Virus record (IMG/VR): IMGVR_UViG_3300036104_000011
Span: 1-41,060 of that record
Direction: 5' to 3' (one strand)
Length of the DNA stretch: 41,060 bases
Origin: a virus
The notes beneath the pieces are model-generated. The model had not been told where the DNA came from. It made no database searches and saw only the letters and a program-made list of their open reading frames with translations. The translations under genes were made by a program, and so were the position numbers. Shown here one piece after another: positions 882 to 9,004 of this stretch (position 1 is the first letter of the stretch; every line of letters begins with the position of its first letter).

Positions 882-1346
882 ATGCCGCCACGCGCCTCCC
901 ATCTCGACCAGATGGACCTGTTGGCCTGGCAGGCGCCGGAGGTGGTGCGTTCCTTCGCACCCGAGCTAGTGCGTGGAGCCTCCTTCGAGGCGCGCATCGC
1001 GCGCGCCATCTCGCTGGCGCTGACTGATTGCGGGGTGCCCCGGGTCGAGATTGCGCAGCGGATGACCACGTTCCTGGGCCACAAAGTCAGCCTGGCCATG
1101 CTGAACGCCTATGCCAGCGCCGCCCGCGAAGAGCACACCATTTCGCTGCCGCGCTTCCTCGCCCTCATGCATGCCACCGGCGACCAGCGGCTGCTGGAGC
1201 TGCTGGCCGAGCCCTTCGGCCTGGCCGTCATCGAGCGGAAGCACCTGCCGCTGATCGAGATGGCGTTGGTGAGCGAGCGCATTGCCGAGCTGAAGGGCAT
1301 GCATGAGGCCAAGCGCCGCGAAGCCCGCGCCAAGGGAGGCCTGTGA
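882..1346 (+). CDS. early regulator-like protein (Ner position), 154 aa
   Basis: The gene lies immediately upstream of the transposase, where Mu-like phages usually keep Ner or another small DNA-binding regulator. Residues about 45-100 contain a plausible helix-turn-helix pattern (VPRVEIAQRM followed by VSLAMLNAYASA), then a segment, ISLPRFLALMHATGD, that resembles the middle of phage CII-like regulatory proteins, where a HTH is followed by a helical block used for oligomerisation. The C-terminus is basic (EAKRREARAK). The start is ATG at 882, next to the divergent control region; its stop overlaps the transposase start. I infer a transcriptional regulator of the early operon; the exact family is not certain, and a purely structural early protein cannot be excluded. 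Confidence 0.6.
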   Translation: MPPRASHLDQMDLLAWQAPEVVRSFAPELVRGASFEARIARAISLALTDCGVPRVEIAQRMTTFLGHKVSLAMLNAYASAAREEHTISLPRFLALMHATGDQRLLELLAEPFGLAVIERKHLPLIEMALVSERIAELKGMHEAKRREARAKGGL

Positions 1347-3292
1347 TGCCAGACGGCTCGCCCTATGACAGCACTGAATGGCTGAACGCGGCCGAGCTCG
1401 CCGCTATGCGCATCCCCGGCCTGCCTGGCACCGCGCGCAGCATTCAGCGCCTCGCCGAGGCCCAGGGCTGGAACACGCCGGAGCGCGAGGGATCGATCTG
1501 GCGTAACCGCGAGGGGCGGGGCGGCGGCGTCGAGTACCATCGCTGCGTGCTGACCTCGCACCAGCAGGCCCACCTACTTCTGAAGGCTGGGCCGATGGCG
1601 ACACCTGTCGACACCGGCGCCGCGCCGAGCAGCGAACGCTGGGCCTGGTACGACCGGCAGACCGACCGCACCAAAGCCCGGGCCCAGGAGCGCCTGGCCG
1701 CCGTGCACGCCATCTACGCGTTGACCGATAGTGGCATCGGCAAGACCGAGGCGCTGAACAGCATCGCGCGCAGCCGCGGCATCGGCATCTCCACACTGCA
1801 GATATGGGACGGCCTGGTGCGCGACATCCCGCGCGACCATTGGCTGCCGCATCTCGCGCCCGGCCATGGCGGCGGCCGGCCGCAGGCCGAATGCCCGGAG
1901 GAGGCGTGGAACTTCCTCTCCAGCCTGTATTTCAAACAGTCCCGCCCAAACTTCCGCGAGTGCTGGCGCCAGCTGGTGATGAGAGCGGCGGAACTGGGCT
2001 GGAAATTGCCCGCTGAGCGCACCCTCTACGACCGATTGATGGCCCTGCCGGAGCCGCTGCGGATCAAGCTGCGCGAGGGCGATGACGCCCTGCGCCGCCG
2101 CCTGCCCGCCCAGAAGCGCGACCGCTCCGTCTTCCATGCCATGGAGGCGGTGAACACGGACGGCCACCTCTGGGATGTCTTCGTGAAGTGGCCGGATGGC
2201 ACGGTCGCGCGCCCGCAGATGGTGTGTATGCAGGATCTGTACTCGGGCAAAACGCTCTCCTGGCGCGTGGACCAGACGCTGTCCTGGCACCTGGTGCGCC
2301 TGGCCTTCGGCGACATGGTCCAGAGCTATGGCATCCCGCGCCTGTGCTGGATGGACAACGGCCGGGAGTTCGCAAGCAAGAAGATCACCGGCGGCCAGGC
2401 CAACCGCTACCGCTTCAAGATCAAGGACGAAGAGCCTGAGGGCCTGATGACCAGCCTGGGCATCGAAGTGCATTGGACCAGGCCGTATAGCGGCCAGTCG
2501 AAGCCGATCGAGCGCATGTTCCGGGACTTCGCGCAGAACATCGCGAAGCACCCCGCCTTCGATGGGGCCTATGCCGGCAATAGCCCGACGAACAAGCCCG
2601 GCAACTACGGCCAGCGCGCGGTGCCGCTGGATGAGTTCCTGGCGGTGATCGGCCAGGGCATTATCCAGCACAATGCCCGGCCCGGCCGGCAATCCGATAC
2701 CGCCAAGGGCCGCTCCTTCGACGAGACCTTCGCCGAGAGTTTCAGCGCCAGCGTCGTGAAGACGCCGACGCCGGAGCAGCGCCGCCTCTGGATGCTGGCT
2801 GCCGAGGGCGTGCGGGTGCGGAAGCAGGACGGCAAGATCCTGTTCCAGGGCAACGAGTACTGGTCGGAGTTCCTGCTGCGCCACATGGGCCAGCAGGTGA
2901 CCGTGCGCTTCGACCCGGCGCGGCTGCATGAGCCGCTGCATGTCTACACCCTGGATGGCCGCTACCTGGGCGAGGCGCAGGTCTGGGAGGCCTCAGGCTT
3001 CGACAGCAGCGAGGCGGCCTCGAAGACCGCCAGGCTCAACAAGAAGGTGCTGCGCGCGGTGCGTGACCAGGCCGATGCGCTGGCGCTGATGCCGGCGCGC
3101 GACCTGGCCAAGATCATGCCGAAGATCCCGGAGCCAGACCTGCCATCGCCCGGGATCGTGCAGCTCTTCACCGGCAATGCGGTGCCGAAGCCGATGCCGA
3201 TCGAGCATGCCGAGGAAGAGGTCGACGAGATCACCCGCATCCTGACCGGTTGGACACCGCAGGTGATCGATGGCGGCGGCGGCGAGCCCTGA
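1346..3292 (+). CDS. tnpA: Mu-type DDE transposase (MuA homologue)
   Basis: This is the transposase that joins phage ends to target DNA for integration and replicative transposition. The ATG at 1346 is preferred, six bases after GGGAGG; a GTG at 1343 would add one residue. Order of parts: an N-terminal Mu-type winged-helix DNA-binding region (about 5-75), end-binding HTH region (about 100-240), then the RNase H-like catalytic core with Asp at about 272 (NTDGH), Asp at about 337 (WMDNG) and Glu at about 389 (KPIER), close to MuA's D269, D336 and E392. A Mu-type C-terminal beta-barrel and tail follow. The total of 648 residues is near MuA's 663. The MuB-type gene follows, separated by a hairpin. 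Identification is firm; the end sequences it binds are outside the window. Confidence 0.97.
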   Translation: MPDGSPYDSTEWLNAAELAAMRIPGLPGTARSIQRLAEAQGWNTPEREGSIWRNREGRGGGVEYHRCVLTSHQQAHLLLKAGPMATPVDTGAAPSSERWAWYDRQTDRTKARAQERLAAVHAIYALTDSGIGKTEALNSIARSRGIGISTLQIWDGLVRDIPRDHWLPHLAPGHGGGRPQAECPEEAWNFLSSLYFKQSRPNFRECWRQLVMRAAELGWKLPAERTLYDRLMALPEPLRIKLREGDDALRRRLPAQKRDRSVFHAMEAVNTDGHLWDVFVKWPDGTVARPQMVCMQDLYSGKTLSWRVDQTLSWHLVRLAFGDMVQSYGIPRLCWMDNGREFASKKITGGQANRYRFKIKDEEPEGLMTSLGIEVHWTRPYSGQSKPIERMFRDFAQNIAKHPAFDGAYAGNSPTNKPGNYGQRAVPLDEFLAVIGQGIIQHNARPGRQSDTAKGRSFDETFAESFSASVVKTPTPEQRRLWMLAAEGVRVRKQDGKILFQGNEYWSEFLLRHMGQQVTVRFDPARLHEPLHVYTLDGRYLGEAQVWEASGFDSSEAASKTARLNKKVLRAVRDQADALALMPARDLAKIMPKIPEPDLPSPGIVQLFTGNAVPKPMPIEHAEEEVDEITRILTGWTPQVIDGGGGEP

Positions 3293-3355: not shown

Positions 3356-4357
3356 ATGCCATCGGATACCCAAGCAATCGAAACCCGCGGGCCACGCCTC
3401 GCCATCCAAATGGAGGAGGCTGAAATCGAGGAAATGCGGCGCGCGTGCCGCGCCATCATGTCCGATGCCAGCCTGAGCGGCACGCAGCTGGCGCAGCAGC
3501 TCGGCATGAAGCAGGCGACGTTCAGCCTGTGGTTGGCCGGCAAATACACCGGGCGAAACGACGTCCAGGGCGCTGCCGTGAAGGCCGGCCTGCAGCTGCG
3601 TGCCGAACGCGATGCGGTGCGCGCGATCGCGCCGGAGGCGCCGGGCTTCACCAATACGCCGAGCTCCCGTGAGTTCCTGGAAATCTTCTCCCATGCGCAG
3701 CATCTGCCAGACTTTGGCGTCATCACCGGCGCCGCCGGCATCGGCAAGACATCAGCCGCCTGCCATTACGCGCGCACCACGGCCGGCGTCTGGAAAATAA
3801 CCGCCTCGCCCTCAGTGATCGGGCCACGGGCGCTGCTGGACGAGTTCGCCCGGGCGATGGAGATCAGAGAGCGCCTGGCGCTGCACAAGCTGCACCACGC
3901 CATCGTGCAGAAGCTGCGGGGGACCAATGCGCTGCTGATCGTGGATGAGGCCCAGCACCTGCAGCCGCAGGCGCTGGACGAGCTGCGCGGCCTGCATGAC
4001 CAGCCCGGTGTAGGCGTGGTGCTGCTCGGCAATGAGGTGGTGCTGGGCAAGATCGATGGCGGCATGCGCAAGCCGGAATACGCGCAGCTCTATTCCCGCG
4101 TTGGCCGGCGGCTGACCCGTAAGGCGGTGCGCGCCGGCGATGCCGAAGCGCTGCTCAATGCGGCGGAGATCGACGCGGATGACGTCCGCAACATGCTCAC
4201 GGCGATCGCGCGCCGACCAGGCGCGCTGCGCGGCATGGTGAAGACCTTGCGCCTCGCGCAGATCGTGGCGGCGAAGGAGAAGGTGCCGCTCAACCTCCGC
4301 CATGTCGAGCTGGCGGATAAGAGCCTGGGCGGCGAGCGCCGGGCGGAGGCGGCTTGA
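3356..4357 (+). CDS. tnpB: AAA+ ATPase, transposition target activator (MuB homologue)
   Basis: MuB-type ATPases bind target DNA as ATP-dependent filaments, deliver targets to the transposase and give target immunity. Residues about 25-80 form an N-terminal helix-turn-helix of the MuB/phage regulator kind (SGTQLAQQLGMKQATFSLWL). The AAA+ core follows: Walker A GAAGIGKT at 125-132, Walker B LLIVDEAQ at 193-200, and a sensor region near LLGNE around 223-227. The C-terminal helical domain (about 265-325) matches the MuB C-terminal DNA-binding region in position. The 333-residue length is close to MuB's 312. An AGAGG sequence lies about 10 bases before the ATG. The stop overlaps the start of the DnaA-like gene, so the two are translationally coupled. 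Confidence 0.95.
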   Translation: MPSDTQAIETRGPRLAIQMEEAEIEEMRRACRAIMSDASLSGTQLAQQLGMKQATFSLWLAGKYTGRNDVQGAAVKAGLQLRAERDAVRAIAPEAPGFTNTPSSREFLEIFSHAQHLPDFGVITGAAGIGKTSAACHYARTTAGVWKITASPSVIGPRALLDEFARAMEIRERLALHKLHHAIVQKLRGTNALLIVDEAQHLQPQALDELRGLHDQPGVGVVLLGNEVVLGKIDGGMRKPEYAQLYSRVGRRLTRKAVRAGDAEALLNAAEIDADDVRNMLTAIARRPGALRGMVKTLRLAQIVAAKEKVPLNLRHVELADKSLGGERRAEAA

Positions 4358-5724
4358 TGAGCGCGAGCACTCAAAACCACGCCACAACGCCATCGCCGGT
4401 TGCGGCGGCAAGCATGACGCCACGCCCGCCGCCGTGGATGCGCCGCATCCTCGTGGCGACGTCGGAGGAGTTCGACGTGGATCCAGAGGGCATCCTCGGC
4501 GCCATCCGGACGCAACCGGCGTCGCTCATCCGTCAGGTGGCGATGTACGTCGCGCGGTCGCACACGATCATGAGCTACCCGCAGATCGGCCGCGCCATGG
4601 GGCGCGACCACAGCACTGTCCTTCATGGCTGCGACAACGTGCGCGCCCGCATGCTGACCCACCCCGCCTTCGCCCGGAGCGTGGCCAGGGTCATCGACCG
4701 CTGGCGGGCGCTGAGCGCCACGGCACTCGGCCCGCCGCAGGGCCTGTCTTCCAACCACGGCAAACACGAACCTCAGGAGCCCTTCCATGGCAAAGACGAA
4801 CAGGCTGAAGCGCCCGGCCGAGACGGCACGCGCACCGGCGGACCGCAGCGAGGCGGAGACGATGCTGGCGCGGCTAGGCTCGATTCGGCGCGAGCTGGCG
4901 CTCTCGGGCGCGGCGTTGGAGGAGACGGTGGCCGGGTTGAAGGCCCAGGCCGAGGAGGCCGTGAAGCCGCTGGCGGCGGAGGCGGAGATGCTGCTCCGCG
5001 GCCTGCAGCTCTACGCCGAGGCGAACCGGGCGGCACTGACGGATGGGGGCAAGACCAAGACCGTGAGGCTGGCCACGGGCGAGCTGGTGTGGCGCCTGCG
5101 GCCGCCGAGCGTGCGGTTGCGCGACGTGGCGGCGGTGATCGAGACCATGCAGACGCTCGGCCTCTCGAAGTTCCTGCGCACGAAGCACGAGGTGAACAAG
5201 GAAGCGCTTCTGGCGGCACCGGCGGAAGCATCGGCGATTCCGGGTGTCTCGATCGGCAGCCCGGGCGAGGAGTTTGCGGCGGAGCCGCTGGCGATGGAGT
5301 TGGTGGCGAGCCGGGCGGCGTAGAGGCGCAACCTGTCAGGAAGACCCGAAGGAAGCGCCTCACCGCTGAACAGCGTGAGGCGAGCGTGGTGCGGAGCCGC
5401 GAGCGCCGCAGGCTCTGGGCCAAGGCCCACTACGTGCCGGCGCAGAAGGGGCCGAGACCCCCTCGCATCCAGGCAGCGGCGCCAGCACCGGTCAAGATCG
5501 CCCCGGTGATCGTGCGGCGCTCGTCCACGCCCATCCTGGCGACCCCCAAGCAGGTGCGCGAATGGCTGGCTCAAAGCCTCTACCTCTGCGGCGGCACGCG
5601 CCTGGATGCCGCCGATCGCGTCGCGCTGATGACGCACGAGGAAGCCCTGGCCGAGGCGAACCGGCGGCGCGCGCAGCTTGGCGATGCCCCGATGCGGCTG
5701 ATCTTCGTGAAAGCGCGCGCATGA
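4357..5724 (+). CDS. DnaA domain IV-like DNA-binding protein, frame open through gam
   Basis: Residues about 30-120 match the C-terminal DNA-binding domain of the replication initiator DnaA: an RQVAMYVARSHT helix followed by the diagnostic IGRAMGRDHSTVLHG signature helix-turn-helix that reads DnaA boxes. No AAA+ ATPase part is present, so this is a DNA-binding domain alone. The ATG at 4357 is chosen; a TTG at 4354 adds one residue and both overlap the stop of the ATPase gene. Oddly, the frame has no stop until 5724, so the 455-residue product would run through the whole gam gene in another frame. The middle (about 145-325) is glycine-, alanine- and arginine-rich, as expected for an overprinted frame. 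After gam the frame again looks like real protein, basic and helical. Either a long protein with a disordered middle, or two genes sharing a frame. Confidence 0.65.
   Translation: MSASTQNHATTPSPVAAASMTPRPPPWMRRILVATSEEFDVDPEGILGAIRTQPASLIRQVAMYVARSHTIMSYPQIGRAMGRDHSTVLHGCDNVRARMLTHPAFARSVARVIDRWRALSATALGPPQGLSSNHGKHEPQEPFHGKDEQAEAPGRDGTRTGGPQRGGDDAGAARLDSARAGALGRGVGGDGGRVEGPGRGGREAAGGGGGDAAPRPAALRRGEPGGTDGWGQDQDREAGHGRAGVAPAAAERAVARRGGGDRDHADARPLEVPAHEARGEQGSASGGTGGSIGDSGCLDRQPGRGVCGGAAGDGVGGEPGGVEAQPVRKTRRKRLTAEQREASVVRSRERRRLWAKAHYVPAQKGPRPPRIQAAAPAPVKIAPVIVRRSSTPILATPKQVREWLAQSLYLCGGTRLDAADRVALMTHEEALAEANRRRAQLGDAPMRLIFVKARA
4787..5323 (+). CDS. gam: Mu Gam-like host-nuclease inhibitor
   Basis: Gam binds DNA ends as a Ku-like dimer and protects linear phage DNA from host exonucleases such as RecBCD. 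The 178-residue product has the family layout: an N-terminal helical coiled region (about 20-75), then the conserved core with WRLRPPSV (about 102-109), a helix ending FLRTKHEVNKEALL and a final strand PGVSIGSPGEEF. The length matches Mu Gam (174). The ATG is preceded by CAGGAG about seven bases upstream. It is nested entirely in another frame of the DnaA-like reading frame. Its third-codon-position GC preference shows that frame 2 is the coding frame here. Identification is firm. Confidence 0.93.
   Translation: MAKTNRLKRPAETARAPADRSEAETMLARLGSIRRELALSGAALEETVAGLKAQAEEAVKPLAAEAEMLLRGLQLYAEANRAALTDGGKTKTVRLATGELVWRLRPPSVRLRDVAAVIETMQTLGLSKFLRTKHEVNKEALLAAPAEASAIPGVSIGSPGEEFAAEPLAMELVASRAA
5386..5724 (+). 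CDS. possible separate gene after gam (same frame as DnaA-like ORF)
   Basis: This entry is the alternative reading of the last quarter of the 4357-5724 frame. After the gam stop the frame again has protein-like character: a very basic segment with SRERRRLWAKAHYVP, a proline/alanine linker, and a helical C-terminus of about 60 residues ending in FVKARA. The first usable start codon after gam is GTG at 5386 (another at 5389), with a weak GAGG about five bases upstream; there is no ATG. The stop overlaps the ATG of the next gene, which shows that the end at 5724 is real. The basic part suggests nucleic-acid binding. Whether it is made alone or as the tail of the DnaA-like protein cannot be told from the sequence. 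Confidence 0.35.
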   Translation: MVRSRERRRLWAKAHYVPAQKGPRPPRIQAAAPAPVKIAPVIVRRSSTPILATPKQVREWLAQSLYLCGGTRLDAADRVALMTHEEALAEANRRRAQLGDAPMRLIFVKARA

Positions 5725-5894
5725 GCCCGGAGCTCGAAGCCTTCCTCGTGAAGCGGTACCGCGAGGTCTACGATGCCGCGCGGCGCAACGCCCCGCGGGA
5801 CCAAGTGGTGGACCTGGCCGTCATCGTCACCGGCGCGCACATCGAAGAGGAAGTCCGGCGGCGTCTGCTACAGGCAGCGGCGGTGCAGCCATGA
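5721..5894 (+). CDS. small early protein, 57 aa
   Basis: A 57-residue, charged, helical protein starting with ATG inside the preceding stop (ATGA) and ending with another ATGA overlap to the next gene, so it is one of a chain of coupled small genes. Two amphipathic helices can be seen, residues about 3-22 and 27-50, joined by a short turn (NAPRDQ). No family recognised. It lies between the DnaA domain IV-like gene and the DnaA domain I-like gene, so a role in phage replication or its control is a fair guess only. Confidence 0.6.
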   Translation: MSPELEAFLVKRYREVYDAARRNAPRDQVVDLAVIVTGAHIEEEVRRRLLQAAAVQP

Positions 5895-6106
5895 CGCCCG
5901 CCATGCTGCTGCTGATCTACCTGTGCACGCCGCCTGCGGCACAGGGCGCCGCAATGGCATGCGTGGCGCGCGAGATCCGGGGTGAGACGTGCGAGGAGGC
6001 GCTGGCGCTGGCCGGCGCCTCCATGCGGCCGGACCGGGCCTGGCACGCAGTGGCCTGCATCGACGTCGCGCCGCGTGCGCCGGCCGCCCGGAGGGCCTCA
6101 CGATGA
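5891..6106 (+). CDS. small exported cysteine-containing protein, 71 aa
   Basis: The N-terminus (MTPAMLLLIYLCTPPAAQGAA) reads as a signal peptide with a likely cleavage after AQG or QGA, though with no clear lipobox. The mature part of about 50 residues has three cysteines (MACV, GETC, VACI) that could form disulphides in the periplasm, plus one in the leader. Start and stop both overlap neighbours by four bases. A tiny exported protein inside a replication operon is out of place functionally. Phage proteins of this size and destination include superinfection-exclusion and envelope-modifying factors; this assignment is inference. No family recognised. Confidence 0.6.
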   Translation: MTPAMLLLIYLCTPPAAQGAAMACVAREIRGETCEEALALAGASMRPDRAWHAVACIDVAPRAPAARRASR

Positions 6107-6645
6107 AGCGCGGCGATGCACTACCCGGCGAGCTGCGCGGCATCTTCGCCGACTTCTGGGAGGTCTATCCCTATCGGCGCCCGAATCCGCGCGCCCTCGC
6201 CGAGGCGGCGTTTGCCGCCGCGGTGAAGGCGGGTGCGAAGCCCGCCGACCTGGTGGCGGCGGCGGCTGCTTACGCCGCTGAATGCAAGAGCAAGGGCATT
6301 GCCGAGGCCTTCGTGGTGCATGCTCGCACATTTCTGGCGCAGCGACGGTTCGAGGATTATCTGGTGTCAGGCGCAGGGCAGGCGGTTGTCAGCGACAAGC
6401 CGGCGGAACCGGATCATCCGTGGTGGCCTGCCTTCCGTGGGCGGGTGAGTGCGGCGGCTTTCGCGCAGTGGATCGAGCCGCTCCGGGTGGTGGCCCAGAC
6501 GCGGTTGTTTGAGGAAGGCGGTCTGCTGAATGTCACGTTGAGCGCGCCCTCCGCGTTCCATCGGGACTATGTGCGCGAGCATTTCGCGGAGGCCATAAAG
6601 GCGGCGGTGCGGTGCCGTCAGATATACTGGGCGGCGGTGCGGTGA
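6103..6645 (+). CDS. phage replication protein with DnaA domain I-like C-terminus
   Basis: Two parts are visible in the 180 residues. Residues about 12-87 carry the FW-x2-YP pattern (FADFWEVYPYRR), a small helical stretch, and a closing ARTFLAQRRFEDYL, as seen at the C-termini of many phage replication-initiation and helicase-loading proteins. Residues about 106-170 match DnaA domain I: PWWPAFRGRVSAAAFAQWI, then EPLRVV, a short beta hairpin, and APSAFHRDYVREHF, equivalent to the tryptophan, FxxWIxPL and APNxFxxDWV motifs of DnaA. In DnaA this domain self-associates and contacts helicase and DiaA-type partners. ATG at 6103 overlaps the previous stop. With the domain IV-like protein upstream it suggests a split DnaA-like apparatus for recruiting host replication enzymes. 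Domain calls are good; the joint role is inferred. Confidence 0.8.
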   Translation: MKRGDALPGELRGIFADFWEVYPYRRPNPRALAEAAFAAAVKAGAKPADLVAAAAAYAAECKSKGIAEAFVVHARTFLAQRRFEDYLVSGAGQAVVSDKPAEPDHPWWPAFRGRVSAAAFAQWIEPLRVVAQTRLFEEGGLLNVTLSAPSAFHRDYVREHFAEAIKAAVRCRQIYWAAVR

Positions 6646-6647
6646 TG

Positions 6648-7034
6648 TCAGCGGAGCCTGAGGCCGGTGACGATTGCGCTGTCGTCTGTCCACTGCGTGC
6701 GCACGATAGTGCCTGGTGGAACCTCGGCGAAGACCTCGCCGATAGTTGGCGTCTCGGCGTGGACCCGTATCCGATCCTCGCGCAACTCGACGCATCTCAG
6801 GCCGTCCGAGCCACCGCCACCACAGAAGAGCGGCGCGCCGTCACTCGCTCGAACACGATCTTGGATCATGATCTGCCCGGCAGGGAACGACGTCACCTGC
6901 CAGGCAGTCCGAACATCGAATGCCCGCTCGAAGCGAATGGCATTGAAGCCCTCGCTTGGGCGCTGCACCTGAACCATCGGGACGGCGCAGCCGCTCAAAG
7001 CCAGCAGGCAACCAATTCGAGAAAGCGTTCGCAT
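6648..7034 (-). CDS. leftward lipoprotein, 128 aa
   Basis: A leftward gene inside an otherwise rightward operon. The N-terminus is a clear lipoprotein signal: basic MRTLSR, hydrophobic core, and lipobox LSGC with the acylated cysteine at residue 15. The mature part is beta-rich, with two further cysteines (FCGGGG, LRCVEL) that could pair, and a final ATIV-like strand region ending GLRLR. On the minus strand the ATG is preceded by GAGG five bases upstream. It is transcribed alone, with its end only two bases from the stop of 6103-6645, and it diverges from 7115. This is the typical look of a moron, a self-contained gene expressed from the prophage, possibly for superinfection exclusion or host envelope change. 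Family not recognised. Confidence 0.8.
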   Translation of the reverse strand: MRTLSRIGCLLALSGCAVPMVQVQRPSEGFNAIRFERAFDVRTAWQVTSFPAGQIMIQDRVRASDGAPLFCGGGGSDGLRCVELREDRIRVHAETPTIGEVFAEVPPGTIVRTQWTDDSAIVTGLRLR

Positions 7035-8605: not shown

Positions 8606-9004
8606 ATGTCAGCCGCCCGTCCCTGGCTCCCGAACCTGCTGCGCGAGATGGCGGACGCCCATGGGCTGTCCACCGCGCTGCGGTTCGCGGAGCGCTTCGG
8701 CGGGCTGTACCTCCACCTGCCGGCAGCGGCACGACCAGACCACGTCGTCGCGAAGCACTCCGGCATGGCGGTGCTGGCCTGGCTGATCGAACAGCATGAC
8801 CGCAATGCACGCATCGTTGTGCCCAAGGCCGCCTGGGCGCAGCGCCAGCGTCGGCTGGAGGTGGTGCGCTCGATGACGGCCGATGGCCGCTCCGCCAACG
8901 AGATCGCCGTGGAGCTCGCGCTGCATGTCCGCCAGGTGGAGCGGCTGCGGGAGAGGATTGCGATGGACGACCGACTGCGGCAGGGTTCTCTGAATCTCGG
9001 ATAG
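8606..9004 (+). CDS. mor: Mor/C-family middle or late transcription activator
   Basis: Mor and C are dimeric Mu activators that bind inverted-repeat sites just upstream of -35 and turn on middle or late genes. This 132-residue protein (Mu Mor is 129) has the family's N-terminal dimerisation region, WLPNLLREMADAHGL followed by ALRFAERFGGLYLHLP (residues about 7-39), and a C-terminal helix-turn-helix, GRSANEIAVELALHVRQVERL, at about 94-114. It sits at the end of the early/middle operon and directly before the lysis operon, as in Mu-like phages. A palindromic element starting six bases after its stop, and repeated before the capsid operon, is its likely target. Only one such gene is seen, so it may serve as both Mor and C. 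Confidence 0.85.
   Translation: MSAARPWLPNLLREMADAHGLSTALRFAERFGGLYLHLPAAARPDHVVAKHSGMAVLAWLIEQHDRNARIVVPKAAWAQRQRRLEVVRSMTADGRSANEIAVELALHVRQVERLRERIAMDDRLRQGSLNLG

Follow-up and report, generated by a model that had tools for sequence, protein, structure and literature searches.

Results

The window analysed here is a 41,060-base virus record from IMG/VR (IMGVR_UViG_3300036104_000011, positions 1 to 41,060) with a Mu-type early region. Since the MuA DDE transposase, the MuB ATPase and a Mor/C-type activator are all present, the phage is a Mu-like transposable phage. Two proteins of its early operon carry end-domains of the bacterial initiator DnaA. One contains domain IV, the DNA-binding domain, and the other, encoded downstream, joins a phage-initiator segment with the motif FWxxYP to a C-terminal DnaA domain I (hereafter the FWxxYP-domain I protein; coordinates in Table 1). 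A sequence-only reading had proposed both modules and their separation from the AAA+ motor, and the searches bore this out, as neither product gave an AAA+ match.

DnaA domain IV protein

Residues 30-95 of the domain IV frame matched the Pfam family Bac_DnaA_C at 75.5 bits (cut-off 31.5; E 3.4e-21), and structures of the DnaA DNA-binding domain were also found by sequence (3pvp, E 1.1e-11). The AlphaFold model had a mean predicted local distance difference test score (pLDDT) of 83. Its best fold matches in the PDB were the M. tuberculosis and E. coli DnaA domains on DnaA boxes, and 3pvp was matched at E 2.8e-6 and TMt 0.91. A true DnaA domain IV is therefore encoded in the frame that starts at 4357. 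The contact motif reads GRDHSTV where DnaA has GRDHTTV, the DNA-contact residues are largely retained, and of the domain IV models searched that of DnaA is the nearest in sequence.

Homologues of this protein were found at related loci (numbered L003 to L146), and some of them differ from it at their ends. Heptad-like N-terminal stretches are present in L005 (3896-4000), L065 (8104-8526), L067 (5507-5896) and L068 (6819-7544) and absent from the window protein; these possible coiled coils suggest that the homologues bind DNA as dimers. In the homologues of L010 (5279-5830) and L011 (6539-7099), DP replaces DH in the contact motif and a C-terminal extension is present, and the replacement possibly alters site specificity.

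FWxxYP-domain I protein

Residues 112-169 of the product matched DnaA_N (Pfam, E 3.6e-9), within the interval 106-170 where this similarity had been anticipated. A profile built from 10 family members found domain I of E. coli DnaA (2e0g) at E 4.4e-7 and that of B. subtilis at 8e-4. The domain I part of a 4-member profile hit frames some 500 codons long in many host-family genomes (E of about 1e-4 to 1e-3), as would be expected of host DnaA, the domain I of which the phage domain resembles. In the predicted model the domain has the order helix-helix-strand-strand-helix-strand, with a pLDDT of about 87 in most blocks and 68 in one. Its top fold match was again DnaA domain I, although at an E value of only 0.025 (probability 0.99), and the N-terminal half was modelled with low confidence. 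The C-terminal domain is thus a true DnaA domain I. The member encoded in L004 has a borderline DnaA_N score (23.1 bits against a cut-off of 24.6).

From residue 14 of 180 onwards, the protein matched phrog_270 (E 7e-12) in the segment with which phage replication initiators end, which upholds the earlier description of a fusion to a phage replication segment. Profile matches to this segment span E 7e-12 to 1e-14, and the N-terminal half also matched DnaD-like loader and primosomal families. The usual first half of such initiators, a DNA-binding head, is missing, and the homologues start at about the same place. In annotated phages that carry it, the segment forms the C-terminal half of an initiator, is preceded by another half, and no DnaA_N was detected; the initiator gene lies directly before that of a DnaB-like helicase in Gordonia phage Birdsong and directly before that of a G39P-type loader in a Moorella phage. 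A tblastn search of 50,697 phage records with the query P0002 found no second example of the fusion, and the three matches of a second query that were scanned had the FWxxYP segment and no DnaA_N match.

Domain I of E. coli DnaA binds DnaB through E21 and F46, of which F46 is also a contact for DiaA, and dimerises through W6 (PMC5448010). By alignment, F152 of the phage protein corresponds to F46 and is invariant in 10/10 homologues. At the position of E21 the window has A119, L003 has S and L004 has G, while the other 7 homologues have E or D.

Co-occurrence of the two genes

The FWxxYP-domain I gene was found at eight loci, four on viral contigs (the window, L003, L004 and L005) and four in prophages of bacterial genomes (L065, L066, L067 and L069). 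At all eight it lies downstream of the domain IV gene in the same operon as MuA, MuB and Gam, MuB being partial in L066. The related loci that carry names are from Roseomonas and Neoroseomonas, and the phage is assigned to hosts of the Roseomonas type. In one further genome (L023/L068) the two genes are on separate contigs, both broken inside the region. The predicted co-occurrence in related prophages was thus found, and the pairing is real and recurrent. The dependence is one-way, in that domain I accompanies domain IV and not vice versa: the domain IV gene is present without a detected domain I gene at L006, L010 and L011 (entire contigs searched), L116 and L146, so that domain IV is not dependent on the domain I gene. 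A full-length FWxxYP-domain I match was obtained in only 3/397 host-family genomes, all three with domain IV, and domain IV itself is present at only about 5 of the roughly 40 MuB loci of the host family. By hand calculation, the chance of a 3/3 association is about 0.001, a value not corrected for shared ancestry.

The contig pieces C13, C14, C24 and C25 of one Neoroseomonas genome (G011) carry the domain I gene and the domain IV gene in two copies each, which suggests two related prophages in one genome. Sinorhizobium phage StopSmel and Ochrobactrum phage POA1180 were considered as related isolates that might have domain IV behind MuB and were rejected, as the genes tested gave no match.

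Early-region layout

Overlapping stop and start codons tie the early genes together (Table 1). The earlier description had the two DnaA-domain genes separated by small genes. Two small open reading frames (ORFs) do lie between them, but so do gam and a C-terminal module that is in frame with domain IV.

Table 1. Features of the early region and the late activator gene, with positions in the window.
Feature	Position	Strand	Evidence or remarks
Early regulator-like gene	882..1346	+	phrog_2345, E 3.8e-36
MuA transposase	1343..3292	+	DDE_2, E 1.9e-50; phrog_310, E 5e-143
MuB AAA+ target-selection protein	3356..4357	+	Phage-MuB_C, E 1.1e-17; stop overlaps next start (TGATG)
DnaA domain IV protein	4357..4770	+	Residues 30-95 form the DNA-binding domain; GRDHSTV is the contact motif
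Domain IV gene, complete open frame	4357..5724	+	455 codons; in order, domain IV, a part rich in Gly and Arg that overprints gam, and the C-terminal module
gam, Mu Gam-like DNA end protection	4787..5323	+	Phage_Mu_Gam, E 1.6e-31
C-terminal module (P7) in domain IV frame	5323..5724	+	Third-position substitution bias suggests coding
Small ORF	5721..5894	+	ATGA overlap with the stop before it; L003 and L004 conserve the ORF
Small ORF with signal-like N-terminus	5891..6106	+	ATGA overlap with the stop before it; L004 and L005 conserve the ORF
FWxxYP phage-initiator segment (about residues 14-90) and DnaA domain I (112-169)	6103..6645	+	Start overlaps preceding stop (ATGA)
Mor/C-type late transcription activator	8606-9004		phrog_836, E 6.9e-18

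The second small ORF has a hydrophobic, signal-like N-terminus and shares 89% identity over 63 residues with its L004 counterpart. Immediately beyond the domain I gene, and convergent to the early operon, lies a minus-strand gene (6648-7034) with a lipobox-like start (LALSGC). Similar minus-strand genes are present in L003 (8483-8863) and L005 (5631-6047), and the gene is a candidate for lysogenic cargo.

Open frame through gam

The domain IV frame meets its first stop at 5724, a feature that the sequence-only reading had overlooked. It is open across all of gam, which lies nested in it in the -1 frame with its own Shine-Dalgarno-like sequence (CAGGAG), and merges in frame with the C-terminal module. 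The frame is likewise open in L003 (5829-7130) and L004 (5353-6663), while the domain IV stop sits at the gam start in L005 and L006 and shortly before gam in L067. Over the first 85 alignment columns of the module, substitutions between L003 and L004 numbered 7, 9 and 23 at codon positions 1, 2 and 3, a bias that suggests translation in that frame. No start codon (ATG, GTG or TTG) precedes the conserved part of the module in L003, and L004 has a single late GTG. A programmed -1 frameshift from gam into the module was considered and rejected, since no slippery heptamer is common to the three phages. Given the open frame, the substitution bias, the lack of starts and the lack of a shared heptamer, the simplest reading is a 455-residue fusion protein that contains gam as a nested gene. 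Such a fusion is only a possibility, and if the frame is translated it would be an unusual case of an entire gene inside another. The probability of an open frame through gam was about 0.06 from codon usage and 0.15-0.24 with the gam codons shuffled. The divergence of gam at fourfold sites was near that of MuA and MuB when the window was compared with L003 or L004, and was lower between L003 and L004 (0.11 against 0.20-0.36). No clear homologues of the module were found beyond the three phages.

Discussion

The two domains, their shared and recurrent operon, the lack of an AAA+ domain and of an initiator head, and the retained F46 equivalent are directly established. The arrangement is real, conserved and unusual, and from it we infer the mechanism. 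The reading we favour, to which we assign a probability of roughly 0.5, is that the FWxxYP-domain I protein is a helicase-recruiting adaptor and that the domain IV protein is either a DNA-binding tether acting in trans or a regulator of phage genes. The adaptor would combine the C-terminal part of a phage initiator with the DnaA domain that touches DnaB in E. coli, and may help to bring host DnaB to the forks left by MuA transposition or to phage DNA. The domain IV protein would supply the missing DNA-binding head in trans or would regulate phage genes, and the two proteins may cooperate physically. The recurrence of the pairing in related phages suggests that they carry an adaptor of their own to the replication machinery of the host. 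Mu relies on host restart proteins to convert strand-transfer products into forks, and the adaptor, if this reading is correct, would be a second route to forks for a Mu-like phage. It would also offer a minimal, motor-free system in which to ask what domain I alone does in helicase recruitment.

Several observations weigh against this reading. The DnaB-contact residue E21 has been lost in the window, L003 and L004, and domain IV is found in five operons with no detected domain I partner. The phage DNA has no cluster of DnaA boxes: 3 sites with at most one mismatch were found where 11.3 were expected from shuffling, a count that was ordinary in comparison with permuted motifs and so amounts to neither enrichment nor firm depletion. 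Finally, Mu itself gets by on the restart proteins of its host and is not known to have such an adaptor.

The sequence-only reading had also described the pair as a DnaA split into separate proteins. Two conserved end-domains in one early operon without the AAA+ domain were indeed found. However, that one DnaA was divided in two is not established, since domain I is fused to an ordinary phage-initiator segment and domain IV occurs without domain I. A stronger version of cooperation, in which the pair is a motor-free two-protein initiator, domain IV marking a phage site and the FWxxYP-domain I protein delivering DnaB, with the domain IV of one clade also being the 455-residue fusion overprinting gam, appears unlikely to us, although if true it would provide a transposable phage with a fork-assembly route of its own.

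For domain IV, a regulatory role is nearly as likely as that of a tether because the studied stand-alone domain IV protein, GafY, activates a phage-like gene cluster (PMC9632790). Less likely than the favoured reading but plausible, and the most serious of the alternatives, is that domain IV is solely a transcription regulator of phage genes of the GafY/HdaB kind, separate in function from the FWxxYP-domain I protein with which it would share no more than an operon. The sequence-only reading had not considered this alternative. GafY (HdaB, corresponding to the N-terminal part of GafA) is alphaproteobacterial (PMC9632790, PMC9638019, PMC11150451), and GafA carries S at the T435 position, as does the GRDHSTV motif here. 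Several of the domain IV homologues have zipper-like N-terminal stretches like those of dimeric regulators, and the five operons without a detected domain I gene are as a lone regulator would predict. On the other hand, the GafZ (DUF6456) partner is absent from the phage record and a Mor/C-type late activator is already encoded by the phage, which weakens a regulatory role without excluding it. The closeness of the domain IV sequence to DnaA, and the restriction of FWxxYP-domain I to operons that carry domain IV, also argue against full separation of the two functions.

If there is a DnaA-like target, the lack of a DnaA-box cluster in the phage would place it on the host, where the two proteins might act as decoys, an option raised in the sequence-only reading, domain IV occupying host DnaA boxes and domain I titrating DnaB or other DnaA partners so that host initiation is stopped during phage growth. 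The largely kept DNA-contact residues and the similarity of domain I to that of host DnaA fit such a role, and there is a precedent for phage targeting of DnaA domain I in YfdR of the cryptic prophage CPS-53 (PMC5448010). But the fused initiator segment would be superfluous in a pure decoy, domain IV recurs alone, and direct support is lacking, and we consider decoys improbable. Slightly less probable still is that domain I makes no host contact and is a captured fold serving only dimerisation or the support of the initiator fragment. While the loss of E21 in the clade of the window and the borderline DnaA_N score of members such as that of L004 are in keeping with this, the F46 equivalent is invariant across 10 divergent homologues and the domain keeps its full fold.

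Comparison with known systems

With phage Mu, the phage has MuA, MuB, Gam and the Mor/C-type activator in common; it differs in its two DnaA-domain genes, which come after MuB and Gam, respectively, and are not known from Mu. Domains I and IV are shared with bacterial DnaA, from which the phage pair departs in lacking the AAA+ domain III, in being spread over two proteins and in having domain I behind a phage segment. Mobile elements with DnaA domains on their own (GafY, and Rickettsia DALP, PMC4316617) are already known, as are phage initiators. In the phrog_270 group of initiators, to which for example gp82 of Gordonia phage Birdsong belongs, encoded next to a DnaB-like helicase, the FWxxYP segment is shared with the phage protein, but it follows an N-terminal half and DnaA_N gave no match; the phage protein lacks this half and has domain I added at its C-terminal end. 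The DALP of Rickettsia plasmids and proteins of Orientia RAGE are further cases of DnaA_N outside DnaA on mobile elements, C-terminal in DALP; these elements are of other types, and the available excerpts mention neither an FWxxYP segment nor a separate domain IV partner (PMC4316617, PMC10732058).

The closest parallel for domain IV, compared here by description, is GafY/HdaB of Caulobacter crescentus and the N-terminal part of GafA of Rhodobacter capsulatus, likewise domain IV proteins tied to a phage-derived element in Alphaproteobacteria. The protein was first named HdaB and read as a replication regulator acting on DnaA; a later account argued that it activates transcription of a phage-like element (PMC9632790). 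GafY works with GafZ, for which the search of the phage record was negative and the same search of a Caulobacter control was positive. Domain IV is free of an AAA+ domain in the phage too, but in the clade of the window its frame continues to 455 codons. Unlike GafY, it stands between MuB and Gam in a Mu-type early operon and is followed downstream by the FWxxYP-domain I protein, and it enlarges the growing set of cases in which this DnaA domain has been reused by phage-derived elements.

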